Source: a virus | Length of the DNA: 32,446 nt | Strand: one strand, 5' to 3' | Virus record (IMG/VR): IMGVR_UViG_3300032323_003090 | Span: 1 to 32,446 of that record | Shown here: positions 8,829 through 28,054 of the stretch, one piece after another | Layout of the letters: every line of letters begins with the position of its first letter | How positions within the stretch are numbered: position 1 is the first letter of the stretch | Notes under the pieces: model-generated | What the model was told of the DNA's origin: nothing | Seen by the model: only the letters and a program-made list of their open reading frames with translations | The model's database searches: none | Made by a program: the position numbers and the translations under genes

Positions 8829-10484
8829 TTAACTGTTTAACTTTACGATGGCTTCAACTATGCCTTCGCCGGTATCTAATTTATCTTCTAAACTGCGTCC
8901 AATAACATTCCAAGGAGAAAGTTCATGTTTAGCACCTGCTCTGGCCAAACCATCGCCTGCACTTACAAGTCTGTCTCCTTTTCTCACTGAACCTATTACC
9001 TTAACTGGAACTCTACCATTTACAGCCACCGGCGGATGTGTTGAGTTTGGACCCGCTGCGCCGTTCATCAAGTAGGCTGCTCTAGTGCTAATAACTCCAA
9101 ATACATCTTCACTTAGTTCTTTCTTTTCAGCTGTGATTTCTTTAATACCGCCAATGGCTACGACTGTTCCTGGGTCGTAAGGCATATCGGCCGCAAATCT
9201 TTCTGCCAAGTCAGCGTATTGGGCTTGCACTGATTTTCCATGAATTGTATTAAACCACATGCCAAGACTACCCAGATTAGAAGTAGTATTAGACACAGGC
9301 ATGATGTCAGACGACACAAATACTGTTCCGGTAATATTTGATTGATGAGTAAATGTATTGGCCGCATAAACATTGCCAATCAACATACTTTGGGTAAAAA
9401 CATTACTCCATCTGTTGGTAGTGTTTCCTAAAGTAAAGGTAACGTTTGCAGCTGGATTCAAGCTTGCATTAAAGGTACTGATAAACGTACCACCGCCCAA
9501 CAATCTATCAACATAAAACTTTGTAGCAAGGCTCAAATCGGGAGATGTTGAAACAGGATTACTATACGCTTCGGGCAATCCGGTATCGTAATTTAATCTT
9601 AATACGTTTTGATCGACTCCGCTTTTTCTAACTCCTAAGGTAAGATCTTTATTGTTTGATGTATTTCTTAATTTTACAACACCAGTATCAACTGATGCAA
9701 CAAATTCTCCTGCCTCGCCTACTGTAATTCCATTGTCATCATCTACTACCAAGAAACCGTTAATTGTACCTGACTGATCGTTTCTTAAAAAAGATGTTCC
9801 TGGCACACTGGCACCACTAACACTTAAGGCTAGGGCTAGTGCTGTATTTCCATAAAATTGTTGGTTGAGATCTGTATTTAAATTTAAACCACGCGACACA
9901 GTTGCAAAACCAGATACATTAGTGTTAAATTGAGTATCTTTGCTCCAAATACCAACCAATGTACCATCAATGAAAAACTTTAGTACAACATAGGTTGGTC
10001 CTGCACCACCGCCGGGCAATTGAGATTGTAACGTGTCAGGAATAGCACCAGTGTTACCTAATGCAGTAGCAGATACTGGGCCAATAACCACCCATGCAGT
10101 TCCATTCCATACTTTTAATTGTTGATTGATTGTATCAAACCATTGCTCTCCTGCTACTGGTGTAGTAGTAAAACTGCCAGCATAAGTCATTGTTGCAATA
10201 GTTTTCCATATTGCATTTGCTGTGCCTTTGGTTGTGGCTGTGTTAATATTCAAGTATTTTGTTGAAGAATTCCACCAAAGTTGGCCTGGCAAAGGTGCGC
10301 CTGGTGCAGCAGTATTGGCAAAATTTTCCATCAATCTTACCATATTTTGATTTAAAAATATACCGTATCCGGGGTAATTTTTACCTACCAAAGTCAAGCT
10401 TGTTGATGTGATGTCAATAGTGCCGTCAACTAATCCACCGGTAATCAAAGCAGATCCGTTTGTTAAGGTTATATTATATGCCAT
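8829..10484 (-). CDS. Tail fibre/structural protein with C-terminal ADLAE...GTVVAIGG domain
   Basis: A 551-residue protein. Residues 20-80 (DITSTSLTLVGKNYPGYGIF, NQNMVRLMENFANTAAPGAP, PGQLWWN) match the N-terminal domain of the 371-aa fibre protein. A second short motif, GEQWFDTINQQLKVWNGTAW (112-131), is common in phage fibres. The middle is beta-rich with typical fibre phrases (LGNTTNRWSNVFTQSMLIGN, 352-371). Residues 422-551 form a compact domain starting QYADLAERFAADMPYDPGTV and containing NGRVPVKVIGSVRKGDRLVS. This C-terminal domain occurs on many marine phage fibre proteins; an intramolecular chaperone-like or tip role has been suggested for similar ends, but I cannot show cleavage. GGAG lies about 12 bp before the ATG. 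Confidence 0.75.
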   Translation of the reverse strand: MAYNITLTNGSALITGGLVDGTIDITSTSLTLVGKNYPGYGIFLNQNMVRLMENFANTAAPGAPLPGQLWWNSSTKYLNINTATTKGTANAIWKTIATMTYAGSFTTTPVAGEQWFDTINQQLKVWNGTAWVVIGPVSATALGNTGAIPDTLQSQLPGGGAGPTYVVLKFFIDGTLVGIWSKDTQFNTNVSGFATVSRGLNLNTDLNQQFYGNTALALALSVSGASVPGTSFLRNDQSGTINGFLVVDDDNGITVGEAGEFVASVDTGVVKLRNTSNNKDLTLGVRKSGVDQNVLRLNYDTGLPEAYSNPVSTSPDLSLATKFYVDRLLGGGTFISTFNASLNPAANVTFTLGNTTNRWSNVFTQSMLIGNVYAANTFTHQSNITGTVFVSSDIMPVSNTTSNLGSLGMWFNTIHGKSVQAQYADLAERFAADMPYDPGTVVAIGGIKEITAEKKELSEDVFGVISTRAAYLMNGAAGPNSTHPPVAVNGRVPVKVIGSVRKGDRLVSAGDGLARAGAKHELSPWNVIGRSLEDKLDTGEGIVEAIVKLNS

Positions 10485-11548: not shown

Positions 11549-12664
11549 TTACGGAATATACTTGAACCAAATATCGCCATTGTTACCATCGCTCACAGTA
11601 GGATCAGATGTGCTTACAAACTTTCTGCTACCGTCCCAGAATGTGCTTCTGGTCATTACATATTCAGTGGTGGCTATCTGTGTTGTATTTGCACCAAAAG
11701 ATGCGGTAGGTGCGACAGGAGTTCCAGTGAAAACAGGACTTACTAAATCAGACTTGGTTGCAACATTGTTTAAAATTGCTATGTTTAGATCTACCGTGTT
11801 GTTATCTATCTTGGTATTCAAGGCGGCAATGTTAATGTTGGCTGCATTTACTCTAAGATTAGCAGCGCCAACATTTGCCAACATTGCTGTTTCAACTGCA
11901 ACTGTTTGATTTAATCTTGATGCCAAGTTGGAGTTAATAACATTTACATTAGAAATAATAGACGAATTAATTGTATTGTTTATTGTATCTACTCGAGATA
12001 TGGTATCTCTAATAGCTATCTGAGCATTTGCAGCAGTAATGTTGGCTCGCAGTTGATCTTCTTCTGAAATCCTAGCTGCCAGATTTGAATTGATTGAATT
12101 AATATTTGCGTTAAAACTGCTTGTGGTATTTGCTAACACAGAAGCCAATTGACTATCAACATAAATTTTGGTTGTTAAACCAAAATTGTTTGTGGCATTA
12201 GATGCCACTTCAACTTGACCGTTAAGACCGTTAATGTGCAGCACTCTTGTGCTAACCCCAGATACATTAGCAAAAACACTTACATTACCAATATTAGAAG
12301 AGTTGGTAATTTGAATATTGCCGTTAGTGTCGTTTATACGGAAACCGCTAGAGCCAATTTCTAAATTTCCAGAAATATCAACATTACCTTGTATCACGCT
12401 ACCAACTGGTATCCATGTGTTGTTGATTGAATAAATTTTTAAACTGGTATTACCTTTATCAAAATACAACTGACCAGTAATCGGGAAGGCCGGTTCGGTA
12501 TTTGCACTAAAATTTTCTAATAATCTTACAAAATTCTCATTGGTTTGATCACCATAATTTTGTGCCAATCTGCCAATTAAGGTTAAGCTGGTGCTGGTGG
12601 TATCTTTAGTACCGTCTTGTACAGTTATAACAGTACCATCTGTTTTTGACACAAAATATGGCAT
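11549..12664 (-). CDS. Tail fibre protein with shared N-terminal domain, stalk and fibre repeat
   Basis: A 371-residue fibre-like protein. Residues 15-80 (DTTSTSLTLIGRLAQNYGDQ, NENFVRLLENFSANTEPAFP, ITGQLYFD) match the N-terminal domain of the 551-aa protein downstream and are probably the virion attachment part. Residues about 170-305 are Asn/Ile/Ala-rich with spacing that could form a coiled coil or fibrous stalk (NSNLAARISEEDQLRANITA). Residues 303-337 form a classic tail fibre repeat (SPVFTGTPVAPTASFGANTT then QIATTEYV). The C-terminus ends NGDIWFKYIP. AGGA lies 7 bp before the ATG, only 4 bp after the preceding stop. A receptor-binding or fibre-shaft role is inferred from these domains. 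Confidence 0.75.
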   Translation of the reverse strand: MPYFVSKTDGTVITVQDGTKDTTSTSLTLIGRLAQNYGDQTNENFVRLLENFSANTEPAFPITGQLYFDKGNTSLKIYSINNTWIPVGSVIQGNVDISGNLEIGSSGFRINDTNGNIQITNSSNIGNVSVFANVSGVSTRVLHINGLNGQVEVASNATNNFGLTTKIYVDSQLASVLANTTSSFNANINSINSNLAARISEEDQLRANITAANAQIAIRDTISRVDTINNTINSSIISNVNVINSNLASRLNQTVAVETAMLANVGAANLRVNAANINIAALNTKIDNNTVDLNIAILNNVATKSDLVSPVFTGTPVAPTASFGANTTQIATTEYVMTRSTFWDGSRKFVSTSDPTVSDGNNGDIWFKYIP

Positions 12665-12668
12665 TATA

Positions 12669-13367
12669 TTATCCTATGCTACTTAAATTGGTTAACGTTT
12701 GTATTCTAATTGTGTAATCAATCTGTATCAATCGATTTAAACTTTTTTGTACCGGATGAAAAATAACATGCGTGAGTAATTTTCCTGTAGTTGTCAATCC
12801 TGACGTACCATCATTACTTCTGGCTTTTAGACCAAGTTCATCAAACGTGTAGGTATCTTCCAAGGTTGTGCTATTATCAAATGCACTTTGCCCTAGCGGT
12901 TCGCCGTAATCCAATAAACAACTGACCACAATATCGCTATACACACGGCCGGGAACATGTCTGACTTCCATTTTGTTTCTAGTAGGATCAGCATTTAAAG
13001 CACTGGTATTATCTACAATTTTGGCAAAAGTTGGATTGTAAAGATTACTGTTACCTGTGTTTGTGTTTGGTGGCAAATAGTTGATAATTCCAGTAGGATC
13101 TACACTTGTTCCGCCATTGCCAAAATGCATTTCAAAAATATAGCTTTGTCCTTTGTTGGCCAATGTGTAACCAATCGCTTCACTTATATTTTCATAATGA
13201 ATGGCGTTACGTTTTTCGATAAAAATTTCACCTGATTCGGGGTCAAAAATCTTGATGTGACCCTGTACATTCAAGCCACCTATTTCGTCTGGCTTTGTAT
13301 TATTGTCTTTATCTTGTTGTAAATTTTCCATTTTTGATTCCATATTACTATTTAGTGAGGTATTCAT
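12669..13367 (-). CDS. Conserved virion structural protein, marine T4-like phage type
   Basis: The 232-residue product has a polar, low-complexity start (to about residue 28) followed by a conserved body: GLNVQGHIKIFDPESGEIFI, EKRNAIHYENISEAIGYTLA, MHFGNGGTSVDPTGIINYLP and a C-terminal HVIFHPVQKSLNRLIQIDYT. I recognise this body from structural proteins of marine cyanomyophages, where it lies among tail and baseplate genes with no defined T4 name. The role is thus virion structure, probably baseplate or fibre attachment, by context. The start at 13367 overlaps the giant gene's stop (ATGA) and suggests translational coupling; in-frame ATGs at 13343 and 13331 could be the true start, since the conserved region begins only near residue 30. 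Confidence 0.75.
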   Translation of the reverse strand: MNTSLNSNMESKMENLQQDKDNNTKPDEIGGLNVQGHIKIFDPESGEIFIEKRNAIHYENISEAIGYTLANKGQSYIFEMHFGNGGTSVDPTGIINYLPPNTNTGNSNLYNPTFAKIVDNTSALNADPTRNKMEVRHVPGRVYSDIVVSCLLDYGEPLGQSAFDNSTTLEDTYTFDELGLKARSNDGTSGLTTTGKLLTHVIFHPVQKSLNRLIQIDYTIRIQTLTNLSSIG

Positions 13368-16300
13368 GGTATATAACTAGTCTGCTCTCTAATAAATTGT
13401 GCTGCCACAGTGGTGCTATTTTGTAATGTGACACCAAACTGTTCCCAAATGTTACTCTTTAAAGTTGTTACACCGTTTAGAACTACATTTCCATTCGACA
13501 ACAAACTTCTCGGATACTGTAAATTATTGGTAAATGTAATATCTCCAATTGGTTGTAAAGTTAGGATGTTAGCAGTTGTGCTAACTACACCAATAGTTTT
13601 ACTTGCTACGCTGATTCTTGTGTCGGCATTACCAAAGGTATTGCTTCCAAATCCGTCTAAACTTATAGACACAACATTTGCATTAGTTATGAAGTTAGTT
13701 GAATCAATAATTCTAGTAGCAACGTTAGTGGCCAGTTTCAACGTGGCAGTGTTACCAGATATGAATTCTACTGGAACTGTAAATGAAGAGCTTACATTTG
13801 AACGCACTCTAAACACAGTTTGAACATTAGGCGCAATTGTTATACTTACAATGTTTGCTGTTGTAAAATTAAATGTGTTTGCTTGCAAATTGGCAATATT
13901 GGCTCTAGTGCCTACATTGGCAGCTGTCTTAATTACATTCACATCACCGGTAATAAATTGAACTGGTATAACATTACTATTAAAACTGCTTCTTGTAACA
14001 CGCAAGTTGGCATTACCAACATTTACAACGCTCGGTGAGAATGCTTTTTGATAGATACTGACAATGTTGGCCGAAGTATTACTAAACACCGATCCACCAA
14101 AACTGTACAAGTTAGCAATATTGACTCTGGTGCCAATATTGGTAGCAAATTTTAGATTTTCTACATTGCCTGTGACAAATTGTACATTAACAAAATTTGA
14201 AACTACATTTGCATCAATAACTTGAAGATTTGATACATTACCTACAAATTGAGTAATGTAGTCCCCGATGTTTGCACTGATAGTCTTATCCAATTGTAAT
14301 CTGTATGTATTACCTTGGAACTGAGTTATGTAATCGCCCACATTAGATGTAATAGGACTTGAAAACTCCACTAGGTAAGTATCTGGATCATAGAACTGTG
14401 TTATTATATCGTTCTTGGCAGCACTAATTGCATTACTCAAAGTCAAAGTATAATCAAGATTTGCAGTTGCCCATAGTCCCGGGGATACAATATCAACAGC
14501 TACAACATCATCTTCTATTATATCTTTTTCAACTCTGGTGATGTATAGACCTGTCAGTTTGTTATTGACATACACAGGATCAACCAAAGAACTGATAAAT
14601 TTACTGTTTGGTGTCACAATCAACGTGGTAGAGTTATTGACAGTTTCAACAATTGTAGCTGTGGCATTTGAAGTGCCAAATTGAGTAATTACATTCCCTT
14701 CAAGCTGACTGGTATTTCCTGACAAGAACAATCTGTAACCTTTTACATTTCCGCCTACTATTCTTGCATTACCTGTATTCCCTGCAAATTGTGTAATGTA
14801 ATCACCTATGCTTGCTGTGATTGGGCCGGAGAGCACTGCTCTGTAAGTGGCGTTTGATGTAACATGTAGATTACCGGTGATAGTTTGTGCGCCGGTTATT
14901 TGAGCCGCTGGTATAGTTTGAATCACACTACCGTCGGATACTAAATTTCCACTAGCAACATTTGCACTTATGCCAGTACCATCTACACCTCTGCGTAATT
15001 GACGCAAAGAATTATTTTTTACTAATTGTATATTTGCCGAATTAATATATGACTCGGAATTTGCATATACGTTGCCTAGTGTTAAGAATGTATTACTGTT
15101 GATCACAATCAAAGAATTTTTTGCAATTTCAGTGTTTGCTGTCCAGGCCACTGCTGTGCTCAGTTTGACTGCATCGTATCTTTGGTAATAATGAATTTTT
15201 TCACCATTGATATAGATTACTCCAGGAATACCAGCTGGTACATTTGGCTCAGGTAACTTGGTCACATCACTTACTAAAATTTCTTGATCCGAATAAAGCA
15301 AATTGTTAGCGAGTGTTGTGGTAGCATTGGCACTAATTCTACTGTAGGTTATATTGGCGCTCATTGGTTGGAACACTCTGTAACCGTAAGTGGCTGTGTT
15401 ACCAGCGGTGTTACTAAACACACGCATTTCCATGGCGTCATACATTCTACCAGGCACAAGTTCTTCCGGAGCATGACTTGAATAAATGTCAAAATAGGCT
15501 CCGCCTACTATATTGATATCTTCGGGTCTTGTTCCTAATTCAGTATCTAAATATGTGCTGTAAATATTTGAATCAACGATGTAATCTTGATCAAGATAAG
15601 CAATAGTTACTTCAACATTTCCGCCTGATGCAATTGGTGTAAATGTTTTATCAAAACTAGATATTGACGTTACATTTGCGTTTAAAGGTGTGCCGTTTTT
15701 ACTGATTTGTAAATTGGCATATATATTACCACTTGGAACAGTTAAAAATCCAGGTGTAATATAAATGATATCAACTTGATTAGAATTGGTTACAGACTGT
15801 AACACCCAGGCATTTCCACTAGAATTGGCCTGAGTAAGATAATCACCAACATTGGCATTGATGTTTTGACTCAATGTGACTTTGAATGTTGTTTCAACAG
15901 GCTGACCTGTCAAAATCATGGTGTCTCTATCAACTCCCACGATTCTAAAATATCCATTATTTTGGAAGTCAAAAGGAACGTTGGCTTCAATTCTAATGGT
16001 TTTGTCTAGATCAAATCCCAAATCTAAAAAGTCAAACTGTGCTGTATTTCCACTGTTAATTGTTAAACCATCATAATTGAAAGAAATGATATTGCTTGAA
16101 ACTTCAAAAGCATTGGCTCTAAACGTAGGTCCAGTTACCTTTGATGCTGGGTATTTTGTACCCGACAGTAACTCGTCAATATTTTTTCCAGGCATTCCTA
16201 CGGTAGGTTCATAGTATGCTGTTATTCTATCTAGTGCGTTGAGTAAAACATTTCCATCTTGAATTATAGAAAATCTTGTAAAGTCAAATTGTGAAACAAT

Positions 16301-19300
16301 TTCTACGTTTGCCTGCACAGAAGCAGCAGCAAAACTACTTGCATAAACATTGCCCGATGTTGAATAAACATTGTTACTAAATGAAATGTAACTGTTTATA
16401 GGATACAAAGTATTGACCAACCAAGGTGTTGCATTTGCATTCTGTGGAAGATAAACTTCATTTTCATGTACAACTAAATTTCCAGATACAATATACAAAT
16501 TACCTGAATCTAAAGTGTCGCTGGATATTACAATGTTTGAATAAGAAGTATTTGGTGTCCAAGTTACCAGGTTACTGCTATAAGTGGTTCGATCAAATTT
16601 TAAAGTGGTGAAAATATTTTTGACCAAATTATAACTTAGATTGCTTTGTAATGAATAATATTGATTTTTTAAAATTGGGTATGCTTGACCACCTATACCA
16701 TCGCCGTTGATTGTGACGTCAGGCGCAGACGTATATCCCACGCCAGGATTGATGATTGTGATACCCGATATGGACCCGTTTGAATACAAAGTACTAATCG
16801 CAGATGCACCTGATCCGCCGCCACCTGTTATTTCAACATTTGGAGGGAATGTATAATCTAAACCAATATTTCCAAGTATAAAATCTACAATTTGAAATTT
16901 GTAATTATTCGCCCAGTCAGAATAGATTGGTTGCTCAAATAATTCATTGTCAAATTGATTACTTAAACTGGGGCTTCTAAATTGATCAAAGCGAGCATCA
17001 TATGCACTTGGCAGATCAAAATCAGTTATATTGCTATCTAAATTATCTTGTTTAAAATAATTAGGAATATATTCTTTTATTTGAGTCCTATACGGTTTTA
17101 CCTCGTTGATATAATCCTGATAAAAGACCTGGTTGTCTCTTGTGAAGTTTGGAAATTGCTCTAAAGCTCTGAGACCATGCACGACGTCAATCAAACTTGT
17201 TTTTATTACCCAGTCTGGACTCTTTTGTTCGGTAAAAATGTAGTTCAACATTGCAAAGAACAAATTGTTGAATTCAACACTGAGTTCATCCACTAGAATC
17301 TGCTGAACCATTCCGTCATAAATCAATCTAAATTCTTCAGTAGGAATAGGATCATAGCCTGATACATCATAGGTTGTAGTATCATATCCTCCGCCAAGTG
17401 ATGGATCGTATAATGCTCTGTTTAATTGCAATGTGCCATTTTGTGCGCCAATCAAAGTCAAGCTCAAGTCATCCTGTGTCTCATACAATATCCAAGTTCC
17501 GTTACCGCCATCTAGGATTTTGATATAATCGCCTGCAATTGGGCTTATGGTCTGTATCTCTGCATAGGTATTCAGAGTATAGGCTATTGTGGTACCAGGT
17601 TGATAAACAGTATCGTACCAGTCAATCGCAGTCCAATATAGTGTTGATTTGTAGCTTTGTATTCTTATAAGATCAAATTCCCCAGTGCTACTATTGTACG
17701 AATAAATTGTCCATTTTCCGTTATGATTGGTATCGGAAGGAACTAATATTTTGTAACCGTTTGGCAGTGTGGTTGTATCAATATAATTTAAATTATCAAC
17801 ACTGTCTGTTTGTTCATCAAATCCCGACACTGGCAAGGGTTCTTCTGACTTTAATGAAGTAGGAGTGCTTAATAATAAAATAGGATATTCTACTAGAATC
17901 AAATTGAGTGTTTCTACATAGGTGGTAATAGCTGTGTTTCTACGAATCACCATAGATTGTCTAGGTAGAAGACTGACACCCGGCTTGTCTTGAGCACTCA
18001 ACGCCGGATCTGGAACAATGGCTCCTAGTTCATCGAACCCGGCCAAACTGTCTTTCAGTTTGTTAATTATTTTTGTTGGCAAATTGGTAAGCGAAGCTCC
18101 TTGCTGTACAAGCTGCCATTCAGTGTGTATTAGATTTGTATTTCTTATTTGAGCAAGATCAAAATGAATAGCAACGCTCTCACCTGACAGTTTATCTGCT
18201 ATGTTGTATAGACCAACTGCATTAGGAGCTAACAGGGCTAGATAAGGTATATTTTGATCTTTGGGACTGGTAATATAATTCTGCAGAGCAAGCGCACTGA
18301 TAGTTCGTTTGGTTTTAAGAACATCAACGTTGGATTTGCCTACCACCCAGTAGTAATACTTTTGAGTTACAATTCCGGTCACCGGATCAATAAAAGTTAC
18401 GGATGAATATGCAGAATTGTCGGCATATCTAGGAGCACCATCACCTACTGAATCAATGTACTGACTTGGTAAAAAGTCGCTTTCTACCCATTCGTAAATT
18501 CTTACTAGACTGCCCGGAAATAGAGAGCCCCAGTTTTTAATTCTGTAAGTTATTTCGTCTTGTTCATAATCAATAAAACTAACTGTGCTCAAATCCCACC
18601 AGATTCTACCAACCTGTTTGTCTGACCAATAAAAATTTGTGTTGTTTATTGTGTCAGATCTATCGGATTGATTGTAACTAGCAGGATCATATTCTTCTTT
18701 ATAATCCAATTCTTGATCCACTACGCCTAATAGTTTTCCTTTGGCTGGGTCAAGATAATCAAAAAAATCTAAAATTTGTTGTGAATTTACATTGTATAAA
18801 AAACTACTTAAAACAGCGTTGGTATCAACTCTTGGCTGACGGAATCTTGTCAAGGCCCATCCGCTTTGTTCATCTTCATTGTAAAAATAAAAAAGTTCTC
18901 CATTTTCACTTGATATAGTTCTTGCATTTGATAATCCGGCTATTAAATATTTTCCGTTCAAAACCACACTTGATCCAAAATTCACATTGTCATCTAGTGC
19001 TGGTCCAAAAAGTTTTTGACTGTAGGCAAACAGTGAAGGATTGTCTATGTCTTCATTGGGGTTTTCTAATAAATCATAAACATACACGGCTCCGCTGTCT
19101 TTAAGAACATCTACAAAGTTTGTTGTATTTCCATCAAAGGTTGTAATTAGTGGCAAACCTTGATCAAAATTTATAGGCAAGTCGTAATCTCCGCCCTCAC
19201 TTCCAATAACTAAAACTCCGGTAGCTTGATCAACTGCTATGCTGGTTCCGTAAAATTGTTGTTCAGTTTCTGGATGTTTGAACACTTGTACAAATTTATA

Positions 19301-22300
19301 ATCTTCTAGACCAAGATCCGCTAATGGAGTGCCTTGATTTCCATTCAATATGTTTAACCGATTTCCTACAACAGTAACATCACTGGTGATTCTCAGCTTT
19401 CCGCTTTCATTACTAGCAGTTACTCCTGGAATAAGTGCTTGGTTGATATCTGCAATCACATTCGCCAACTGTGATCCTGAAAATTGTACCAATCTGTCAT
19501 TGATAATAATACTTTGCCCAGGAGTCACTGTTGGATTGGTTTTAGTGGACAAAATAGTTCCATAGATTCGGCCCACGTTTAAAAATCTAGTGACCAGACC
19601 TTGAGAATATTCAGTATCAATATATTTTGAACTTACAACATAAATGTTGCACCCAGTGTTACACATGGCCAAGCCACTACCAAAATTGTCATTCAGTGAG
19701 CCTGTCAGGTTTGAATATAATACCTGATCATAAACAAATTGATTGGTTTCAACAAATAATTTTCTACGTGGTTCTAGTAACGAGGACCCAGGATCTCCAA
19801 AAGTAATCTGAGATGGATTGATACTAGTTATTGTGTAATCTGCATCAACACCTTCTGGTTTGTTTGTAAAATCGTACTGCAAAACTCCATCTAAATAAAC
19901 TCTGTAAAAATTACCAAAAGGATCAGGTAGTGTAAATGTGTTCGAAGAGCCAGTGGTAGTTAATTCAGTTTTTGTTCTATGATAAACAAATACAGCTCCT
20001 GCACCGCTCACATCATTGACAGTTGTGTTACTGGCACCAACTGCAATTACCGATCCATCTGAATTACAAACTACAGCTGATCCAAATTCACTGTTAATAG
20101 CAACTTCAGAAGACTTGGGTAAAGTTTCTAAAAATATATATTTTTCTGCTGGTTTGACCACTGACATGATAAGGAAACTGGCTGGTGGAGTTGCAAATAC
20201 CAAGTTTGTTACTGCGCCCACGGCAGTAACAGTAATTGTAATATCATGAACTCCTGTCAAACCACCAACAGTGGCACCATCAATTGTTAGAACATCTCCT
20301 ATCAAATAATCAACACCTGCATTTTCTAAAACCAATGTGTAATTTATTGATGCAGAACTATAAGAAACTCTGAACTTGGCTCCGGTACCAGTGCCACCTG
20401 TCGCCGTTCTGTTATAATAAAATACTTCCGTACCTGCAGTGGGTCTTGATCCAGTTTGAGTATAACCAGTTATTCCAACCAAAACTTTTGTGATGTTTAT
20501 GGTCAGACCGTTAGTCACAGAAGACCCGCCTAGCTCTTCACCAAGAATACTAATGGTATCATTTAACAAGTATCCTTTTCCAGGATTGTTTAGAGTTACT
20601 GTATATACGCCGCCTGATCTAGCTACATCAAAGGTTGCACCAGTGCCACTGCCCCCGTCGGCCGGAACATTGGTATAATTTGCAGTCCCTGATGCTGCGG
20701 TTCCTGAAAATGTAAATGTTTCAATTGAAGATTTGATGGTGTTATCAAGATTGTAATCAATGTAGGGAAGAAACTGTGATGCAATAATAGATGCTGATAC
20801 AATAACATCAGTTGCATTATCAATCAAGGCAGTCAAACTCAAGGTTGTAATAGAACCATTGTCTGGTTGTATTAGTTCTTGTACTGCCGACTGTCTTTCG
20901 TAATCAATTGCATAACAATAAACTTTATTGGCACCTGGTGCTCCAACATATAGGTACTGAGCATCATCGCTTAAAGCCAACGAGTGACCAAACATGTCGC
21001 CTGAGACACCCGACTCGGCAGTTAATATACACTGTAGTAGTCTGTCTTTAAAAACATACACCACACCAGTGTCGTTGGCTGCTGTTGGATCACTACCTAT
21101 TAAGTAGCTATTGACGTTATTCTTTGTTCCAGTTGCAATAACCTTGCCAAACTGATTGATCTGAGAATAAATGTGATTACTAAACAATGAAGCTTTAAAA
21201 GCGAATTCATCTTGAGAATCTCTTGAATAAACACCTATTCTTCCTGATCCAGAATCAGGAGCTGATGCATAAAGATATGTTGATGTAAAATCCAGTGCAA
21301 TTGCACTACCAAAATGATCAAAACCTGAATATTGATCTAGCTGTATGGTTTCTCTGTAGATCCAAGGATCAGTTTTGGTATATACTCCCCAGTTGTCTTT
21401 GTCATCAATAGTCTCAACCCACACCTTGTCATTTCTTATCAGCCCTGAATTAGGTGCATAATTTACAATATCCAATGGAGTAGCAAACTTACTGCTTGTT
21501 AATTTGTATAGCAAACCTTGCCCAAGAACGGCTTGACTCTCAATTAATTCTTGTAAGTTGCTATATATAGTAGCTAAAAATCTTGTGTCATCCACGATAG
21601 ATTGAACAAGATACATACCATTGTATCTAGGATCAAAATTTTTCAAAGCAACTATATCATTTTCTTGGAGCCCATGAGGTGCGTTGGATACAAATTCTGC
21701 TTGTGAATTAAGATGGTAACGTAGAATAAAAATCAAACCAGGAACTGGGGTGGCTCTATAAACATTCCATTCATCGTTTAGATCTCTAGCAGTCCAAATA
21801 GTGTAACCTATTCCAATTTCGTTGGCAATTTCTCTGTAGCTTTCATAATTTTTGATATCAAACACTGTATTATTGATATCATCTAAATGTACAAAGCCGG
21901 CCACTGGCAATGGTTTAAATTCTACTGGTTCGTTATAATCAACTGTTTTTAGGAAATCAACTTGAAATGCGCCACTTTGCCTATATACAGACTGCTGCGT
22001 AAATGTTTTGATATCTACGTCAGTGTTTGATTCAACTTCAGCAAGTTGAAAAACTGACGGATTATTTCTAAAAAATTGCTCAGGTAAAACAAATTCAAGA
22101 AAATTATTTGTTTCTAAAGCACCGTATTCACCTACGCGAATTGCCCAATTTTCATAAACAGTCAGCGGTTGGGTGCCTAAATTATTGAATTGCGAACCTT
22201 GCAATGCATCAATTGCGTTAAGAGTTCCGCCTTGTTTTATCAATCCTTGATAAAATTTTGATTGGGTTGTTACATCAATTCCTAGATTTGTAAAATATTC

Positions 22301-25300
22301 TCTAGGTCTGAAACCTATTAACCCATTACTGAACAACTGTATTTCTTCGTTGATTGGTTGATCATTGATGTCATAGTATTTCAATGATTGCGAAGCGTTA
22401 GTGGCAAAATTGTTTATCAATCCCGAGCGTAATTCGTTATTATCTATTTTTTGCCAAAAAGCAATCTGGAAAGTGTCAGCAGCAATAATGTTTTGTAATG
22501 CAGTGTATAGTGAAGATTTATAACTTACCAAGGAGCCTTTGAGATAATCACTACCAGCAAGCCATTCTGGAACTGTTTCGTTGCTGTAAATGTATCCTGG
22601 TAGTTCCAAACTGCCATTCCATAATCCTGTTTTATTGCCAACAAGTTTTAATCTTGATTGTCTGCTTCCAGTTTCAGGCACATAAATTACATCATTGAAA
22701 ACTGTTGTATTGTCTAATAAAAGTAAATGTTCGTATTGGACAAAATCAAACGTGGCGAATCCGATAGTTTCATTACTAATGCACTTGATAGTGAACAGTC
22801 CATTATCTCTTGTTACAGTGAAACTGTTTTTTCTAATGGCCTTAGAGTTAATATCTAAAATTCTACTACCATATGCAGAACCGGTTACTTCATCAATAAT
22901 TGCAGTTGGATTAAAAATTGTTATGTAGTCGCTGACAGGGCTTAGAACCAACACATTGCCAGTTTTCCAACCTTGATTGGTCCAATGTAAAAATTCCTTG
23001 GAACTCAATGCCCAATCTTTCTTTTCTTTTAGTAAATTATCTCTTTCGTCAAACACAAACCCTTGAAGTGTAAGATAACGCTGATAACCTATTAAAAAAT
23101 CAACTACCTGTTGTTTTTTACTAAATTCAAATCCATACGGTATGGCCAATCTTTGATTCTTGAAATCCTGATATACCACAGCAGTTGAATCACCAACTTG
23201 AATATTATACGAATTATTGTTTGCAAGACTTGGCACAATTACAAAGTAGGGATTTCCTATATCATATCCACTGACAGTGTAGCCATTTTCTGTTTTTTCA
23301 ATTACCACAGCTGAATATGACAATTTGTCTAATGGAGCTCCTTTATATAATTCAATGCTGTAGTTTTCGTCAGGAATAACAACACTGGCATTAATACTGC
23401 TGGGGCTAAATTGTTCAGCCAGTAGATTTATAATACTTTTGTCAGAAAATCCTGCCATTTTATAACTTAGTTGAATGTTCAATAGTTCTAAGTTATCTTT
23501 GACATATGTACTGGCATCATTGATACCAAGATTTTTTGCATAATCAACAATCCAGTTGATATATCCGGCAGCTCTGTCAATGGTGTTGTCTGCATTAATA
23601 TATCCGTTGATCTTTATAATGCTGGGCGTTATGTGTCCGTTGTTTTCTACTAAAAATTGAGAAGTGGCCAGATTTCTCTTGTAATTTTCAATATCTAAAA
23701 GCAGTCCAAAATATCTAGCAGGCTTGGCAATTGCAAGTGCAAAATGCAAAGCAAAAGGAAATTCTGAACTTCTACGCCAAGCCAATTCAGTGGGGCCTAT
23801 GTCTCCTACTGCAAAACTCAAATTTGCAGATAGGCTGTCGTAATCTGTGGCCAAAAATTCTGTAGGACTACGTAGATTTCCATTGTCATCAACTGGAATA
23901 ATAGAAGTTAAACTGGGTCTGCTGTATCTTAGATCTAAACCAGCTCTTGGACCCGCATGAATGTAACCTGCTTCTAGATCACTCCATAACACAAAGTTTC
24001 CGCCGGTGTAGGGTGCCGGACCATATCTGTCGTTCCAGTAGTCTGGTTTTTCACTGAAACCCAGCATTTCCCAAGGATGTGTATGCGGCCGGTCAGTGTC
24101 AAAGAAATAACGGTATATACTACGCCAGGTGCCTGGAAAATTTTCCCCATTCACTATATCTCGGAATTTTTTTAAGTTCCAAGTAAATGGATCACTGGCA
24201 GAGAATGTATTGTTTGTAGTGTAATTGACACGATTGGTACCTGCCCATCTCAGAAAATCCTGACTGAGCAATTGATTTATTTCCTGCAAATTGTAATCTA
24301 GAACTCTGAATTTACCAGGAATATAATCGTTAATATTAAACAAATTTACATCATATTCTACTTTAATATTATTATAAATTCTTTTTTCTAACTCTAGCAG
24401 TAGATTGTCTCTAAAATCCCCAAATGCCACAGTAAGACTTCCGTCGTGCCCTTGTATGACAGGCACAGGAGTTCTATAGGTGTTGTCAGTATAAATTTCT
24501 GGTATATACTTGGGATACATTCCCAACTTGGTAGGAGTTTCAGGAATATAACTTCCGTCTGTACTACTGTATTCTACTATTGAGATTATATCATCTATCA
24601 ATAATGTAAAAGATTCTACAATATTAATTGCTGCACGAGTTTGATCAAATGTATAATCTCTTCCTTTGATCAATAGCTCAGTAGTGGTAATGTTATCAAG
24701 TGTTCGTGTGAGATAAACCAAAACTGCTTTGTTACTGATCACAGTGTCTTGGAAAATATTAGTTATTTCATAGGTTCTAATTTCTGGATCAAAAACCGTG
24801 TAGCTTGGCAACGTGACTTTGTTACTTTCTCCGTAAGGCACCATGTCACTGAACTGCCAAGGGAAATTGCTATTTTTTACACTGTTTATTCTTTGTAAAA
24901 TTGTATCAACAGCGGCGGCAGTGTTCTGTCTATCTAGCTCCAGATTGGCTGCGTATTCTAGAAATTTTTGTTTGAATTTTGAATATTCTCTTGATGCCAA
25001 TCTCAAACTATCAACAAAACTCATGGTTGGATGATTCAAGAACAAACCGGGATATACTACTGGGGCACTGTGCTGTAGGATTGCACCGCCACGATTGGTG
25101 TAGAAAATATCTCTTAAATTGCTCTTACCTGGTACTGTTCCTACTATGTCAAGACTATTGTTTTTAAATGCAATCAAATGATTACGCATTTGTCCAAGAG
25201 TAAGCTCTGTGGTGTTGATGTTTAAAGAATTGTTATCTAAGTTTAGTGGAACTTCGTAAAAGGCATCTCTTGATGTTTCTTGTGAGTTAAAAATGCTAAC

Positions 25301-28054
25301 AAAAACTGCATCATTAACTTGTAAAAGACTAGGATTTATTAAAATTGCCAATCTTTCATTTATTTGAGTAATGGCAAAGTTTCCATTTTCTACTCTAACA
25401 TTATTAATAGTTACTTTGATATTGGGACTATCTAGTGTTACATCAGGCAAAATATCAATAGGGAACAGATTGGTAGTTCCATCATAGATAAAATTGAAAA
25501 TCTGATATTGTTGGCTGAAATTTAAATTTATTTGCCAAATGTTAATTCTACTACTGGTCGTTCTTGTAATATTTTTTTGCAATAAACCAGAATTGATAGT
25601 TCCGGTCAATTCAAGTCCGGCCGACGACCTATAGGTAAAAGCGTCTATATCAAAGTTATTTTCAAAAATTATATCGCCTTGAGTTGCCAAGTTTCTATAA
25701 CTGATAGGAAACCCTAAAACAGTATCATTGGTACCAGTGCCTACCTTGTATGAAAATAATTTTGTGCCTTGAAAATTTGACTGGGGATAAACACTGTTGT
25801 CACCTAAACTGACACCATTGTTGTCAATGATAAGAAATTTTGGTGGTTGATTTATCGAAGTCTTTTGTTGTGAATCAACCCAATTTACACCATTGAAGTG
25901 CCATTGCTTGGCTCCGTTACTGCCATAATTGACTGGCACTGTGTGGCCATCTTCTATAGTAGAATCTTCAGCTTCTTCAAAATAGGCTTTATAAACATTA
26001 GCAGGATTGGTAGAAAATAATTCAATACTGAAATTGTAGATTTTATTTCTAACATTTAAATCTTCATCTGCGGTAAAAACGATTCTATCACCGTCAGCAA
26101 AAGTCACAGTTTCTGTATCTTGAGCCTGGCCGGTACCTGCTACACCTTGTATAGCAATAAATTCTGTGTTCAATCCAAACCCGCTAGGAGCTCCTGCAGC
26201 AGCCCAATTTGTATTTCCTAGCGAAGTGATTCTATACGTTCTTCCTGGTCTCAAAAATTCAGAATTTACTGTAATACTAAATGTGGCCTGGGTAGGGGCA
26301 GTGGGAGGCGAATAATTAATTATTACGCCTTGAATCTGTTGGTAAGCATTTGTGACTACATCATCTAAAACATCAATGGCAGCTTTTGCTTGTGTGCCAT
26401 AGTTAAACAATTGTAGATTAGAATTGAATTCTATGATTGGCCGTTGTGCTCTAAGATTCTGATCAATTAATAATTGAGTATTGTTATACTCTGCTGTTTT
26501 TTCTAAAATATTTACATGAAACCATCTGTTACTTCTTGACCATGCATTATTGTCAATAGAGCTTCTATTAATGGTAATATAGTCAGGATTGGATAAATCG
26601 TTATCCAACTCTGTAGAAAATAATGTGCTTGCTTCGACGAGTTTGATAGAAGTACCAACACCTTCTACATAATAGGTATTGTTTGTATAAGGAGCCACAG
26701 CAGTTGAATCAAAAGTTACCTTGAGTCCATTTGTAAATGTGACACCATTGGGACTTACATAATTTTTTTGTCCTACAATTTCCGTGGCAGGATCAATAGT
26801 AAATGCATTATAATCAATTAATCTAATAACCCCAACAGCATTGTCAGATTGATCACTCTGATAATACAAAAAATCCAAAGCTGCTGTCAATGACGGTACC
26901 TGATTAAAAATATTTGATCTTTTATAAAATTCTCTACCAGTGTTTTCTAGACCAGATACAATTCGCACCTTGTTCTCATTAGGCACATTAAATTTTGTTG
27001 CTAGATACAAACGCATATTGCCTTGTACATCAAGATATACACTTGTCTGATAAATGCTGGTTCTTTGCTCAAGAGGTATCACAACATCTTGATCAAGATA
27101 GATTACGTCATCAAGCACTCTTGCAGTATTGTGCCAGTATTGTTCATCGATGTATTCATTGTTAACAAATACAATTGACAAGTTGTCAAACGATGTTGAA
27201 GGACCATCAAACCCTCCTAGATTTTCTAGATCACTAATCAAACACCCTTGTAAATCTTGATAACTCAAACTGGTTGCATAGTTAACTTGATCCACTATTG
27301 GCATCAATGTCCATTCAATTTGAGCAGTAGCAGACGGTACATCAAAAGTCACTGCCCCTGCATCCTGCCCGTTGTTTGAAACTCCCAACACGGTTCTAGT
27401 TTCTAAATTGTTTAAGTTTGGATCAAATCCAGACACTCCTGGTTTAGACTGGATGAAAAATTTATTTTCAGGTTCATTGATGTTGAACGTATAGGAGCCA
27501 CCGCGAGCCAAAGTTATCAATGGATTGGTAATGGCATCAAAGCCACTTACTGAATATGATCTTTTTGTAGCGTCGTAGGTAACATCAAAGGTGGCTTCAG
27601 TTGGCACATCGGCAGCACTGATTATAATTTCATCTGGACCATTTTCTAACCAATAGTATTGGACAAAATTAACAAATTTGTCTAAATCAATTTGAGGATC
27701 ATAAGAATAGTATTCGTTGTCAAACAGGCGATTGTGATTGTTATCAAATCCGCCGTAATAACTAATTTTGTTAGTGATGTCTGCGTATGTAGTTGCAAAC
27801 TCTAACTTGTTAGAAACTGGGTTTTTAATAACTATAGTGGGTTCGACTTGATAGTTTTGTCTATCTTGAGTGGGCTCAGTGATGTAACTGTCGGAAACTT
27901 TGAATGAAGGTGCTAATTTTCTTCCAATATAGCCAGAAACTTTGACTAGGTTTGGCTCACTTAAAAGTTGATCCGTGGTAGCATTGAGAAACTTTTTGTT
28001 AGTTTCTGTCCTAAAAACTTCTGGTAAAAATTGTAAAGTTTTAAAAACCGCCAT
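13364..28054 (-). CDS. Giant multidomain virion protein (4896 aa), probable baseplate/tail component in the gp7 position
   Basis: One uninterrupted frame of 4896 codons starts 8 bp after gp6, with AGGA about 7 bp before the ATG. The N-terminus (LQFLPEVFRTETNKKFLNAT, then NLVKVSGYIGRKLAPSF) resembles large structural proteins of marine T4-like phages, which I know mostly as unnamed virion proteins. Domains in order: conserved N-terminus (1-150); possible cupredoxin-like sandwich (165-250); a small domain shared with gp6 (591-648); a conserved GHDGS...LELEKRIYNNIKVEYD segment (1198-1228); seven FG-GAP-like propeller repeats with insertions (2245-3035); three GGxGxGA/NPGxGY modules (2455-2581, 3735-3788); Asn/Gly/Val-rich repeats (4065-4823). 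No signal peptide or membrane segment is seen. Its place after gp25-gp6 suggests a counterpart of T4 gp7 (1032 aa) with large expansions; that is inference from order. The stop overlaps the next start by 4 bp. Confidence 0.85.
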   Translation of the reverse strand: MAVFKTLQFLPEVFRTETNKKFLNATTDQLLSEPNLVKVSGYIGRKLAPSFKVSDSYITEPTQDRQNYQVEPTIVIKNPVSNKLEFATTYADITNKISYYGGFDNNHNRLFDNEYYSYDPQIDLDKFVNFVQYYWLENGPDEIIISAADVPTEATFDVTYDATKRSYSVSGFDAITNPLITLARGGSYTFNINEPENKFFIQSKPGVSGFDPNLNNLETRTVLGVSNNGQDAGAVTFDVPSATAQIEWTLMPIVDQVNYATSLSYQDLQGCLISDLENLGGFDGPSTSFDNLSIVFVNNEYIDEQYWHNTARVLDDVIYLDQDVVIPLEQRTSIYQTSVYLDVQGNMRLYLATKFNVPNENKVRIVSGLENTGREFYKRSNIFNQVPSLTAALDFLYYQSDQSDNAVGVIRLIDYNAFTIDPATEIVGQKNYVSPNGVTFTNGLKVTFDSTAVAPYTNNTYYVEGVGTSIKLVEASTLFSTELDNDLSNPDYITINRSSIDNNAWSRSNRWFHVNILEKTAEYNNTQLLIDQNLRAQRPIIEFNSNLQLFNYGTQAKAAIDVLDDVVTNAYQQIQGVIINYSPPTAPTQATFSITVNSEFLRPGRTYRITSLGNTNWAAAGAPSGFGLNTEFIAIQGVAGTGQAQDTETVTFADGDRIVFTADEDLNVRNKIYNFSIELFSTNPANVYKAYFEEAEDSTIEDGHTVPVNYGSNGAKQWHFNGVNWVDSQQKTSINQPPKFLIIDNNGVSLGDNSVYPQSNFQGTKLFSYKVGTGTNDTVLGFPISYRNLATQGDIIFENNFDIDAFTYRSSAGLELTGTINSGLLQKNITRTTSSRINIWQINLNFSQQYQIFNFIYDGTTNLFPIDILPDVTLDSPNIKVTINNVRVENGNFAITQINERLAILINPSLLQVNDAVFVSIFNSQETSRDAFYEVPLNLDNNSLNINTTELTLGQMRNHLIAFKNNSLDIVGTVPGKSNLRDIFYTNRGGAILQHSAPVVYPGLFLNHPTMSFVDSLRLASREYSKFKQKFLEYAANLELDRQNTAAAVDTILQRINSVKNSNFPWQFSDMVPYGESNKVTLPSYTVFDPEIRTYEITNIFQDTVISNKAVLVYLTRTLDNITTTELLIKGRDYTFDQTRAAINIVESFTLLIDDIISIVEYSSTDGSYIPETPTKLGMYPKYIPEIYTDNTYRTPVPVIQGHDGSLTVAFGDFRDNLLLELEKRIYNNIKVEYDVNLFNINDYIPGKFRVLDYNLQEINQLLSQDFLRWAGTNRVNYTTNNTFSASDPFTWNLKKFRDIVNGENFPGTWRSIYRYFFDTDRPHTHPWEMLGFSEKPDYWNDRYGPAPYTGGNFVLWSDLEAGYIHAGPRAGLDLRYSRPSLTSIIPVDDNGNLRSPTEFLATDYDSLSANLSFAVGDIGPTELAWRRSSEFPFALHFALAIAKPARYFGLLLDIENYKRNLATSQFLVENNGHITPSIIKINGYINADNTIDRAAGYINWIVDYAKNLGINDASTYVKDNLELLNIQLSYKMAGFSDKSIINLLAEQFSPSSINASVVIPDENYSIELYKGAPLDKLSYSAVVIEKTENGYTVSGYDIGNPYFVIVPSLANNNSYNIQVGDSTAVVYQDFKNQRLAIPYGFEFSKKQQVVDFLIGYQRYLTLQGFVFDERDNLLKEKKDWALSSKEFLHWTNQGWKTGNVLVLSPVSDYITIFNPTAIIDEVTGSAYGSRILDINSKAIRKNSFTVTRDNGLFTIKCISNETIGFATFDFVQYEHLLLLDNTTVFNDVIYVPETGSRQSRLKLVGNKTGLWNGSLELPGYIYSNETVPEWLAGSDYLKGSLVSYKSSLYTALQNIIAADTFQIAFWQKIDNNELRSGLINNFATNASQSLKYYDINDQPINEEIQLFSNGLIGFRPREYFTNLGIDVTTQSKFYQGLIKQGGTLNAIDALQGSQFNNLGTQPLTVYENWAIRVGEYGALETNNFLEFVLPEQFFRNNPSVFQLAEVESNTDVDIKTFTQQSVYRQSGAFQVDFLKTVDYNEPVEFKPLPVAGFVHLDDINNTVFDIKNYESYREIANEIGIGYTIWTARDLNDEWNVYRATPVPGLIFILRYHLNSQAEFVSNAPHGLQENDIVALKNFDPRYNGMYLVQSIVDDTRFLATIYSNLQELIESQAVLGQGLLYKLTSSKFATPLDIVNYAPNSGLIRNDKVWVETIDDKDNWGVYTKTDPWIYRETIQLDQYSGFDHFGSAIALDFTSTYLYASAPDSGSGRIGVYSRDSQDEFAFKASLFSNHIYSQINQFGKVIATGTKNNVNSYLIGSDPTAANDTGVVYVFKDRLLQCILTAESGVSGDMFGHSLALSDDAQYLYVGAPGANKVYCYAIDYERQSAVQELIQPDNGSITTLSLTALIDNATDVIVSASIIASQFLPYIDYNLDNTIKSSIETFTFSGTAASGTANYTNVPADGGSGTGATFDVARSGGVYTVTLNNPGKGYLLNDTISILGEELGGSSVTNGLTINITKVLVGITGYTQTGSRPTAGTEVFYYNRTATGGTGTGAKFRVSYSSASINYTLVLENAGVDYLIGDVLTIDGATVGGLTGVHDITITVTAVGAVTNLVFATPPASFLIMSVVKPAEKYIFLETLPKSSEVAINSEFGSAVVCNSDGSVIAVGASNTTVNDVSGAGAVFVYHRTKTELTTTGSSNTFTLPDPFGNFYRVYLDGVLQYDFTNKPEGVDADYTITSINPSQITFGDPGSSLLEPRRKLFVETNQFVYDQVLYSNLTGSLNDNFGSGLAMCNTGCNIYVVSSKYIDTEYSQGLVTRFLNVGRIYGTILSTKTNPTVTPGQSIIINDRLVQFSGSQLANVIADINQALIPGVTASNESGKLRITSDVTVVGNRLNILNGNQGTPLADLGLEDYKFVQVFKHPETEQQFYGTSIAVDQATGVLVIGSEGGDYDLPINFDQGLPLITTFDGNTTNFVDVLKDSGAVYVYDLLENPNEDIDNPSLFAYSQKLFGPALDDNVNFGSSVVLNGKYLIAGLSNARTISSENGELFYFYNEDEQSGWALTRFRQPRVDTNAVLSSFLYNVNSQQILDFFDYLDPAKGKLLGVVDQELDYKEEYDPASYNQSDRSDTINNTNFYWSDKQVGRIWWDLSTVSFIDYEQDEITYRIKNWGSLFPGSLVRIYEWVESDFLPSQYIDSVGDGAPRYADNSAYSSVTFIDPVTGIVTQKYYYWVVGKSNVDVLKTKRTISALALQNYITSPKDQNIPYLALLAPNAVGLYNIADKLSGESVAIHFDLAQIRNTNLIHTEWQLVQQGASLTNLPTKIINKLKDSLAGFDELGAIVPDPALSAQDKPGVSLLPRQSMVIRRNTAITTYVETLNLILVEYPILLLSTPTSLKSEEPLPVSGFDEQTDSVDNLNYIDTTTLPNGYKILVPSDTNHNGKWTIYSYNSSTGEFDLIRIQSYKSTLYWTAIDWYDTVYQPGTTIAYTLNTYAEIQTISPIAGDYIKILDGGNGTWILYETQDDLSLTLIGAQNGTLQLNRALYDPSLGGGYDTTTYDVSGYDPIPTEEFRLIYDGMVQQILVDELSVEFNNLFFAMLNYIFTEQKSPDWVIKTSLIDVVHGLRALEQFPNFTRDNQVFYQDYINEVKPYRTQIKEYIPNYFKQDNLDSNITDFDLPSAYDARFDQFRSPSLSNQFDNELFEQPIYSDWANNYKFQIVDFILGNIGLDYTFPPNVEITGGGGSGASAISTLYSNGSISGITIINPGVGYTSAPDVTINGDGIGGQAYPILKNQYYSLQSNLSYNLVKNIFTTLKFDRTTYSSNLVTWTPNTSYSNIVISSDTLDSGNLYIVSGNLVVHENEVYLPQNANATPWLVNTLYPINSYISFSNNVYSTSGNVYASSFAAASVQANVEIVSQFDFTRFSIIQDGNVLLNALDRITAYYEPTVGMPGKNIDELLSGTKYPASKVTGPTFRANAFEVSSNIISFNYDGLTINSGNTAQFDFLDLGFDLDKTIRIEANVPFDFQNNGYFRIVGVDRDTMILTGQPVETTFKVTLSQNINANVGDYLTQANSSGNAWVLQSVTNSNQVDIIYITPGFLTVPSGNIYANLQISKNGTPLNANVTSISSFDKTFTPIASGGNVEVTIAYLDQDYIVDSNIYSTYLDTELGTRPEDINIVGGAYFDIYSSHAPEELVPGRMYDAMEMRVFSNTAGNTATYGYRVFQPMSANITYSRISANATTTLANNLLYSDQEILVSDVTKLPEPNVPAGIPGVIYINGEKIHYYQRYDAVKLSTAVAWTANTEIAKNSLIVINSNTFLTLGNVYANSESYINSANIQLVKNNSLRQLRRGVDGTGISANVASGNLVSDGSVIQTIPAAQITGAQTITGNLHVTSNATYRAVLSGPITASIGDYITQFAGNTGNARIVGGNVKGYRLFLSGNTSQLEGNVITQFGTSNATATIVETVNNSTTLIVTPNSKFISSLVDPVYVNNKLTGLYITRVEKDIIEDDVVAVDIVSPGLWATANLDYTLTLSNAISAAKNDIITQFYDPDTYLVEFSSPITSNVGDYITQFQGNTYRLQLDKTISANIGDYITQFVGNVSNLQVIDANVVSNFVNVQFVTGNVENLKFATNIGTRVNIANLYSFGGSVFSNTSANIVSIYQKAFSPSVVNVGNANLRVTRSSFNSNVIPVQFITGDVNVIKTAANVGTRANIANLQANTFNFTTANIVSITIAPNVQTVFRVRSNVSSSFTVPVEFISGNTATLKLATNVATRIIDSTNFITNANVVSISLDGFGSNTFGNADTRISVASKTIGVVSTTANILTLQPIGDITFTNNLQYPRSLLSNGNVVLNGVTTLKSNIWEQFGVTLQNSTTVAAQFIREQTSYIP
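13585..14190 (-). repeat. Three tandem ~65-70-aa repeats near the giant protein C-terminus
   Basis: Residues about 4622-4823 hold three copies with the shared frame V-[QE]-F-[VI]-[ST]-G-[ND]...LK.A.N[IV].TR...N...ANIVSI. Anchors are VQFVTGNVENLKFATNIGTR, VQFITGDVNVIKTAANVGTR and VEFISGNTATLKLATNVATR. Nucleotide similarity is also visible between copies (the ANIANL-coding part recurs about 220 bp apart). Asn, Val and Thr are strongly enriched. The repeats precede a short unique end (NSTTVAAQFIREQTSYIP) that may cap the structure. Confidence 0.65.
14240..15860 (-). repeat. Repeated 'NxGDYITQF' beta motif in the giant protein C-terminal third
   Basis: Six occurrences of a strand ending in [YIV]-[IL]-T-Q-[FA] are spread over about residues 4065-4605: NVGDYLTQA (~15840), SIGDYITQF (~14795), EGNVITQF (~14685), KNDIITQF (~14400), NVGDYITQF (~14325) and NIGDYITQF (~14260). 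They are usually followed by G-N and a short strand. The last two are only about 22 residues apart. The regular return of D-Y-I-T-Q-F suggests a fibrous or solenoid beta structure. Confidence 0.6.
18950..21330 (-). repeat. Seven FG-GAP-like propeller repeats in the giant protein
   Basis: Seven blade-start motifs occur in order of translation: HFGSAIAL (~21308), QFGKVIAT (~21143), MFGHSLAL (~20985), EFGSAVVC (~20083), NFGSGLAM (~19681), FYGTSIAV (~19247) and NFGSSVVL (~18965). Most are followed by YLY/IAV strands and a G(A/S)...GxVYV(Y/F) strand, as in integrin-alpha FG-GAP repeats. The first blades are about 55 aa apart; later ones are separated by extra domains of roughly 30 to 240 aa. Seven repeats is the number needed for one closed propeller. 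In known proteins such propellers bind protein or glycan ligands; here binding is inferred only. Confidence 0.7.
20310..20700 (-). repeat. Two GGxGTGA..NPGxGY modules inserted between propeller blades 3 and 4
   Basis: Residues about 2455-2581 hold two tandem modules: GGSGTGATFDVARSGGVYTV with NPGKGYLLNDTISILGEELGG, and GGTGTGAKFRVSYSSASINY with NAGVDYLIGDVLTIDGATVGG. A third, more diverged module is at about 16690-16850 (GGGGSGASAIS...NPGVGYTSAPDVTINGDGIGG). Each has a Gly/Thr turn, a beta strand, a second strand ending in N-x-G-x-x-Y and a short D-x-[IV]-x-I-x-G strand. I know the pattern from marine phage tail proteins but not its function. Confidence 0.55.
26110..26280 (-). other. Second copy of the gp6-type inserted domain, in the giant protein
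   Basis: Residues about 591-648 read TYRITSLGNTNWAAAGAPSG, then GLNTEFIAIQGVAGTGQA. The order of motifs (Y-R-I-T-S-x-G-x-T-x-[WF]...GA...F.A..G.AGTG) is the same as in gp6 residues 538-588. The two copies differ clearly in sequence, so they are not a recent duplication. The module seems to sit between otherwise continuous structural segments. Confidence 0.55.
27300..27560 (-). other. Possible cupredoxin-like beta-sandwich in the giant protein
   Basis: Residues about 165-251 read ITLARGGSYTFNINEPENKF, then a GVSNNGQDAGAVTFDVPSA turn and a strand IEWTLMP. The pattern 'L-x-R-G-x-x-Y-x-F-x(2)-x...G(V/T)xNNGxxxGxxTFxVP' is what I associate with cupredoxin-fold modules in phage and bacterial surface proteins. 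No Cys/His copper-ligand set is visible, so if the fold is right it is structural. Fold assignment is inference. Confidence 0.35.

Follow-up and report, generated by a model that had tools for sequence, protein, structure and literature searches.

A giant protein assigned to the RaK2-type virion structural family, encoded behind the gp6-type wedge gene of an IMG/VR phage contig

The contig IMGVR_UViG_3300032323_003090, analysed here over its full 32,446 bases and referred to as the window, encodes behind a gp25-gp6 gene pair one intact giant gene, the product of which combines three conserved blocks with optional inserts and a variable end. As the window is the entire IMG/VR record, it represents a fragment of a larger phage. 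On the basis of profile comparisons the protein belongs to the RaK2-type family of giant virion structural proteins (phrog_10938), and its gene occupies the slot which is filled by gp7 in T4. The reading favoured here, and considered probable, is that this giant forms a scaffold on gp6 which replaces the linking role of gp7 and carries modules that extend outwards.

The giant gene and its neighbourhood

The giant gene consists of one frame from ATG to stop with no internal stop codon (13364..28054, minus strand; 4,896 codons), which encodes a product of 542 kDa, accounts for 14,691 of the 32,446 window bases and starts 8 nt downstream of the end of the gp6-type gene (28063). The preliminary description of this DNA, in which a single uninterrupted frame of 4,896 residues was placed directly behind gp6, with about 45 % of the window and nearly five times the length of T4 gp7 (1,032 aa), is thus borne out by the reading frame, the intergenic gap and a uniform coding signal. 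The order of the genes in the window is gp25, gp6 and then the giant, followed by a conserved gene and two tail-fibre-type genes:

31573..31953, minus strand, gp25-type baseplate wedge protein, 126 aa (Pfam GPW_gp25, E 1.7e-11; phrog_43, phrog_261)
28063..31524, minus strand, gp6-type baseplate wedge protein, 1,153 aa (phrog_10646, E 6e-298; phrog_219, E 2e-24)
12669..13367, minus strand, conserved neighbour of the giant, 232 aa (phrog_11259), with a start that overlaps the last bases of the giant gene
11549..12664, minus strand, tail-fibre-type gene, 371 aa (tail fibre families phrog_454 and phrog_2631)
8829..10484, minus strand, tail-fibre-type gene, 551 aa (phrog_15511 and phrog_14394, in common with 11549..12664)

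The N-terminus of the window gp6 matches the gp6 of Prochlorococcus phage P-SSM2 (hhalign probability 96.6, E 6.5e-10). A homologue of the 232-aa neighbour lies directly behind the giant in 29/42 relatives and has been relocated nearby, on the other strand, in RaK2 and Serratia phage BF. This protein was considered as a hidden gp7 and was rejected, as no gp7 match was obtained. The two fibre-type genes have in common N-terminal families of approximately seventy amino acids (phrog_15511/14394), which recur in genes behind the giants of Cassandra and Phosso, and this shared N-terminus is likely to be a baseplate-docking domain. Two adjacent radical-SAM genes (468-1589 and 1582-2982, minus strand) occupy the far end of the window, the first of them with a SPASM domain, and a radical SAM gene is also present four genes behind the giant in Phosso. 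Two further consecutive genes with similar starts (5906-6727 and 6724-7506, minus strand) resemble glycosyltransferases by eye, with no Pfam hit.

Third-position GC content is even along the giant frame (0.25-0.32) and similar in the gp6 gene (0.28). Comparison with the closest relative, L138, with which the giant shares 86-93 % amino acid identity depending on the block, shows that in each block nucleotide changes are concentrated at the third codon position (155/65/698 for codons 1-2100), and an excess at this position was observed in all blocks against each of three relatives. The uniform third-position GC content and the position 3 excess together indicate that the giant frame is a real coding sequence. 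In two other contigs the corresponding frame measures 4,902 and 4,904 codons between stops, with an identity to the giant of approximately 90-91 % over 4,333 residues, and a single stop-free frame was found in 30/30 long relatives searched, twenty-nine of them with 4,059-6,290 codons and one with 2,019 codons that is ended by the contig edge. The frames of four relatives (L168, L181, L185 and L031; ~6,090-6,290 codons) exceed that of the window protein in size. Among the forty-two frames that are complete within their loci, forty-one span 3,439-4,904 codons, and the remaining one (L013; 2,060 codons) has been shortened by a single frameshift relative to the 99.7 % identical L011. An assembly fusion of several genes, raised in the preliminary description as a possible undoing of its claim, has a negligible probability and is excluded by the same-length frames in other contigs, the giant frames of isolates and the uniform coding signal, with nothing in its favour. 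The giant is a real and intact protein, and an unusually large yet not extreme member of a known giant family.

Family membership and modular anatomy

Searches against the PHROGs database matched the giant to phrog_10938 ('virion structural protein') in four stretches (E=0; 1,076 bits), the same family being matched by RaK2 ORF070 with 5,737 bits. The core profile match, the place behind gp6 and the presence of the blocks 1-145, 481-2100 and 3061-3740 in this order all place the window protein in the RaK2-type family. RaK2 ORF070, Serratia phage BF gp235 and CBB_236 likewise occupy the slot behind gp6, contain the three blocks and belong to phrog_10938, and the CBB member is found in virions. 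Between the window and the RaK2-type blocks, BLAST identity is 22-35 %, and the window giant is approximately 1,560 aa longer than the RaK2/BF/CBB type owing to insert 1, a propeller insert and an extended C-terminal region. PHROGs files phrog_10938 under 'head and packaging', which is probably wrong. A PHROG match to 'head closure Hc2' at residues 3720-3784 was rejected as an indication of a head function, since it is short, lies over a Gly-rich repeat region and looks spurious.

Translated searches recovered fifty-five to sixty records from isolates, almost all of them jumbo myophages. A megablast search against phages gave no match, and a name for the gene itself was not found in the RaK2 and Alcyoneusvirus papers. 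The giants of the isolates range from those of RaK2 (3,326 aa) and BF (3,339 aa) to those of Vibrio phage 2.275.O (3,771 aa), the PA5oct-like Cassandra (3,857 aa) and Phosso (4,555 aa), and the gp25-gp6-giant order is conserved in all five. The giant of SCTP-2 (3,807 aa) lies behind an unannotated long gene in the place of gp6. The closest isolates in both sequence and gene order are the Arenbergviridae (Cassandra, PA5oct and MIJ3), Phosso and Atu_ph07. At least 596 IMG/VR stretches encode relatives, and gp6 adjoins the giant in 96/98 metagenomic loci with a gp6 match. Nine further relatives (L217-L225) come from contigs that binning had placed in bacterial MAGs, including those of Pelagibacter, Porticoccaceae, Rickettsiales and Neomarinimicrobiota; these are probably phage contigs, some of them possibly mis-binned. 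The large size of this family and its existing annotation indicate that the giant is not a one-off, and the window specimen is ordinary within it.

A table of lengths among complete members distinguishes three conserved blocks, optional inserts and a variable C-terminus:

27620..28054, minus strand, conserved block 1, aa 1-145 (142-171 aa in every complete member of the table)
26615..27619, minus strand, variable insert 1, aa 146-480 (9-499 aa in relatives)
21755..26614, minus strand, conserved block 2, aa 481-2100 (1,485-1,913 aa in relatives; motifs HTHPWEMLGF and FYQGxIKQKGT)
22469..22624, minus strand, small CBM5/12-like module, aa about 1811-1862 (profile and Foldseek)
18875..21754, minus strand, optional insert 2, aa 2101-3060, with six to seven FG-GAP-type blade motifs and Gly-rich inserts (99-1,286 aa in relatives)
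16835..18874, minus strand, conserved block 3, aa 3061-3740 (639-1,033 aa in relatives)
13367..16834, minus strand, variable C-terminal region, aa 3741-4896 (174-1,208 aa in relatives)

Block 1 contains a conserved motif around LDKFVNFVQYYW, and AlphaFold confidence is low for most of its length. The conserved N-terminus noted in the preliminary description is therefore present, but its attribution to marine phages is too narrow, as phages of Klebsiella, Pseudomonas, Sinorhizobium and Salicola have this block in common. Insert 1 was modelled with confidence (pLDDT about 90), and its weak, cupredoxin-like PDB matches lead to the suspicion of a cupredoxin-like beta-domain. For residues 1000-2110, most of which fall within block 2, AlphaFold (61 sequences) gave a pLDDT of 82 and a pTM of 0.73, with confident prediction of approximately residues 1000-1880. 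Foldseek comparison of this model against the PDB returned no match besides the small CBM5/12-like module, and the top matches in a viral library include a structural protein of Atu_ph07. The sequence of the whole giant protein likewise gave no match in the PDB.

The CBM5/12-like module scores below the cut-off in Pfam (CBM_5_12, E 0.033), has a best E of 0.0015 in profile comparison with the PDB, and shows a local Foldseek match to the Milano spike 8fqc and to chitinases (probability 1.0, E about 0.07). The same module recurs at residues of about 40-92 in gp34, the proximal long tail fibre protein of T4 (E 1.7e-4), as well as in the spike of Agrobacterium phage Milano and the gp6 of Vibrio phage 2.275.O, and may represent a common docking or sugar-binding module of phage tails.

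Blade motifs and C-terminal repeats were searched for with regular expressions. Six blade motifs in insert 2 were found by pattern and a seventh by eye (NDNFGSGLAMC), all within residues 2248-3055, and the Pfam match to FG-GAP_2 (E 0.0055) reaches 17.3 bits, below the cut-off of 23. An FG-GAP/integrin-alpha-type beta-propeller is thus supported at the sequence level for insert 2, to which it is confined within the window protein. The insert is absent from RaK2, BF and four further relatives (L021, L022, L194 and L196), Cassandra and Phosso have an insert that lacks FG-GAP blade motifs, and on a quick tree with some long branches the propeller must have been gained or lost three times or more. 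Insert 2 also evolves faster than the core, with identities of 86 % vs 93 %, 57 % vs 71 % and 43 % vs 57 %. The C-terminal region incorporates a Gly-rich module (3745-3780), a beta module in common with P-SSM2 gp7 (4237-4290) and repeats (4417-4610 and 4626-4781), among them a [FI]xxG[DN]...TR repeat that is present three times and [D/G]xITQF units that recur. The Gly-rich module (16715-16822) reads GGGSGA...GVGYTSAP. The propeller, inserted modules and repetitive C-terminus of the preliminary description accordingly find support in the blade motifs, the length table and the repeats.

Presence in virions and comparison with gp7, gp8 and gp10

Relatives of the window giant are packaged in virions, the window phage itself being known here from its genes. 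CBB_236, the gene of which adjoins CBB_237 (gp6), was detected in virions of phage CBB by mass spectrometry, with twenty-one peptides and 7.7 % coverage (PMC5259590). In phAPEC6 seventeen virion peptides were assigned to gp245 (381.9 kDa), which adjoins the wedge protein gp244 (PMC7247149). As its mass equals that computed for RaK2 ORF070 (382.2 kDa) and its neighbour is a wedge protein, gp245 is taken as a homologue, assigned to the family by size and neighbour and not by sequence. The low coverage of the CBB and phAPEC6 relatives (7.6-7.7 %) fits a low copy number. Six copies of the window giant would amount to 3.25 MDa. With a mass of approximately 650 Da per bp of DNA, the 351-kb genome of phAPEC6 comes to approximately 200-220 MDa. 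The capsid of this phage comprises 1,620 copies of a 42-kDa major capsid protein, or approximately 68 MDa (PMC7247149). The giant would thus dominate a baseplate, not a virion, and the earlier proposal that it makes up much of the virion mass is contradicted, with six copies contributing about 1 %.

T4 gp7 (phrog_964) resembles the giant in its position behind gp6 in the wedge operon, its multi-domain size and its presumed six copies, but it is five times smaller and shows no significant similarity in sequence, or in fold to the modelled parts of the giant (1-700 and 1000-2110). As a control, T4 gp7 and cyanophage gp7 could be linked by hhalign at T4 residues 730-813 (probability 94.8, E 6e-8), whereas profiles of the giant compared with both by hhalign and hmmsearch gave no significant match over the core. 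The best weak match to the gp7 core motif lies at residues 1912-1973, with an E of 0.003 against cyanophage gp7 and of about 0.1-0.6 against a merged gp7 profile; not being significant for the number of comparisons made, it is a lead only. The sole better match in the comparison set was that of the beta module at 4237-4290 to P-SSM2 gp7 (E 7e-4), and a window-family profile (A2) found nothing in the P-SSM2 genome. The AlphaFold models of residues 1-700 and 1000-2110, of which 1-120 and 1900-2110 are of low confidence, did not retrieve gp7 from the PDB. Neither profile nor fold comparison therefore upholds the likening to gp7 in the preliminary description as one of homology.

Profiles of T4-type gp7 matched nothing in the complete genomes of Cassandra, Phosso, RaK2, SCTP-2 and BF or the near-complete genome of Vibrio phage 2.275.O, and gp8 profiles matched nothing in those of Cassandra, Phosso, RaK2, SCTP-2 and 2.275.O, although both sets do detect P-SSM2. 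The complete relatives retain gp6, gp25 and gp53. The suggestion that the giant stands in place of separate gp7, gp8 and gp10 parts agrees with this for gp7 and gp8, but the gp10 C-terminal domain is encoded by a separate gene in Cassandra; the idea of a gp7-8-10 fusion is thus not demonstrated.

A giant protein behind gp6 already exists in a model phage, as P-SSM2 gp7 (PSSM2_111, phrog_2885) has 5,195 aa. It shares with the window giant both the slot and a small beta module, but carries the T4 gp7 core motif, which is not detected at significance in the window family. A comparable replacement of gp7, by VrlC, has been proposed for pelagi- and cyanomyophages (PMC7029224).

A probable scaffold in the gp7 slot

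In T4, gp7 occurs once per wedge and six times per baseplate, in contact with gp6, gp8 and gp10 (PMC3004832). The counterpart of gp7 in simple systems links a pair of gp6 chains and also bears the tail spike (PMC10457771). The gene order suggests a position in the wedge for the giant as well, and this position, with the absence of other candidates, makes it most likely that the giant fills the role of gp7. About six copies may be present in the baseplate, one per wedge; their conserved blocks would build a large scaffold that sits on the gp6 dimer and assumes the linking function of gp7, perhaps also that of gp8. Fibres could be held, or the cell surface touched, by the optional propeller, the beta-rich variable C-terminus and the CBM-like module, all of which would face outwards; copy number, contacts and a receptor-sensing function are alike presumptive. 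Against this reading stand the placement of the family under 'head and packaging' in PHROGs and the two models, of residues 1-700 and of 1000-2110, in neither of which a known baseplate fold was recognised. It is conceivable, if doubtful, that the scaffold is unrelated to gp7, with a new-fold core of approximately 2,400 residues in place of both gp7 and gp8, and that this family and that of cyanophage gp7 independently grew beyond 4,500 residues in the same baseplate place.

The giant may alternatively be a true but extremely diverged gp7 ortholog, with helices that fill the gp7 place in the (gp6)2-gp7 core bundle, all other parts being insertions. The gene position, the lack of any other detected gp7 in complete relatives and the growth of cyanophage gp7, which is profile-related to T4 gp7, to 5,195 aa in the same slot are all consistent with such an origin, as is the match at 1912-1973, the most consistent of the weak matches to the core motif. 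However, no match is significant for the number of comparisons, and T4 gp7 is not among the PDB fold matches, even though the models of 1900-2110 and 1-120 are of low confidence, so that orthology can be entertained only tentatively.

A long peripheral appendage near the baseplate, such as a tail hair, whisker or adhesin that is not part of the wedge, is unlikely. The beta-rich repetitive C-terminus, the CBM-like module and the optional propeller would suit an appendage, and phage CBB has atypical whiskers along its tail (PMC5259590), but the approximately 2,400 residues conserved in all members are too many for a fast-evolving adhesin, the gene is fixed behind gp6, and separate fibre-type genes come after it. 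Cleavage of the giant as a polyprotein into several baseplate proteins is more improbable still: three conserved blocks with variable linkers and low mass spectrometry coverage could be read in this way, but protease-site evidence is lacking, the mass spectrometry tables hold one entry per gene, and the blocks are seen in separate genes in no relative, L013 being accounted for by its frameshift.

The family to which the giant is assigned is common and includes some of the largest proteins of these phages, yet it has been annotated without characterisation of its structure or role, and its confidently modelled core (aa 1000-1880) has no solved structural relative. Cultivable relatives are available in RaK2, CBB, phAPEC6, PA5oct and MIJ3. 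If both gp7 and gp8 have been replaced, jumbo phages build a contractile baseplate around a central part different from that of T4, in which a fixed scaffold carries swappable outer modules.
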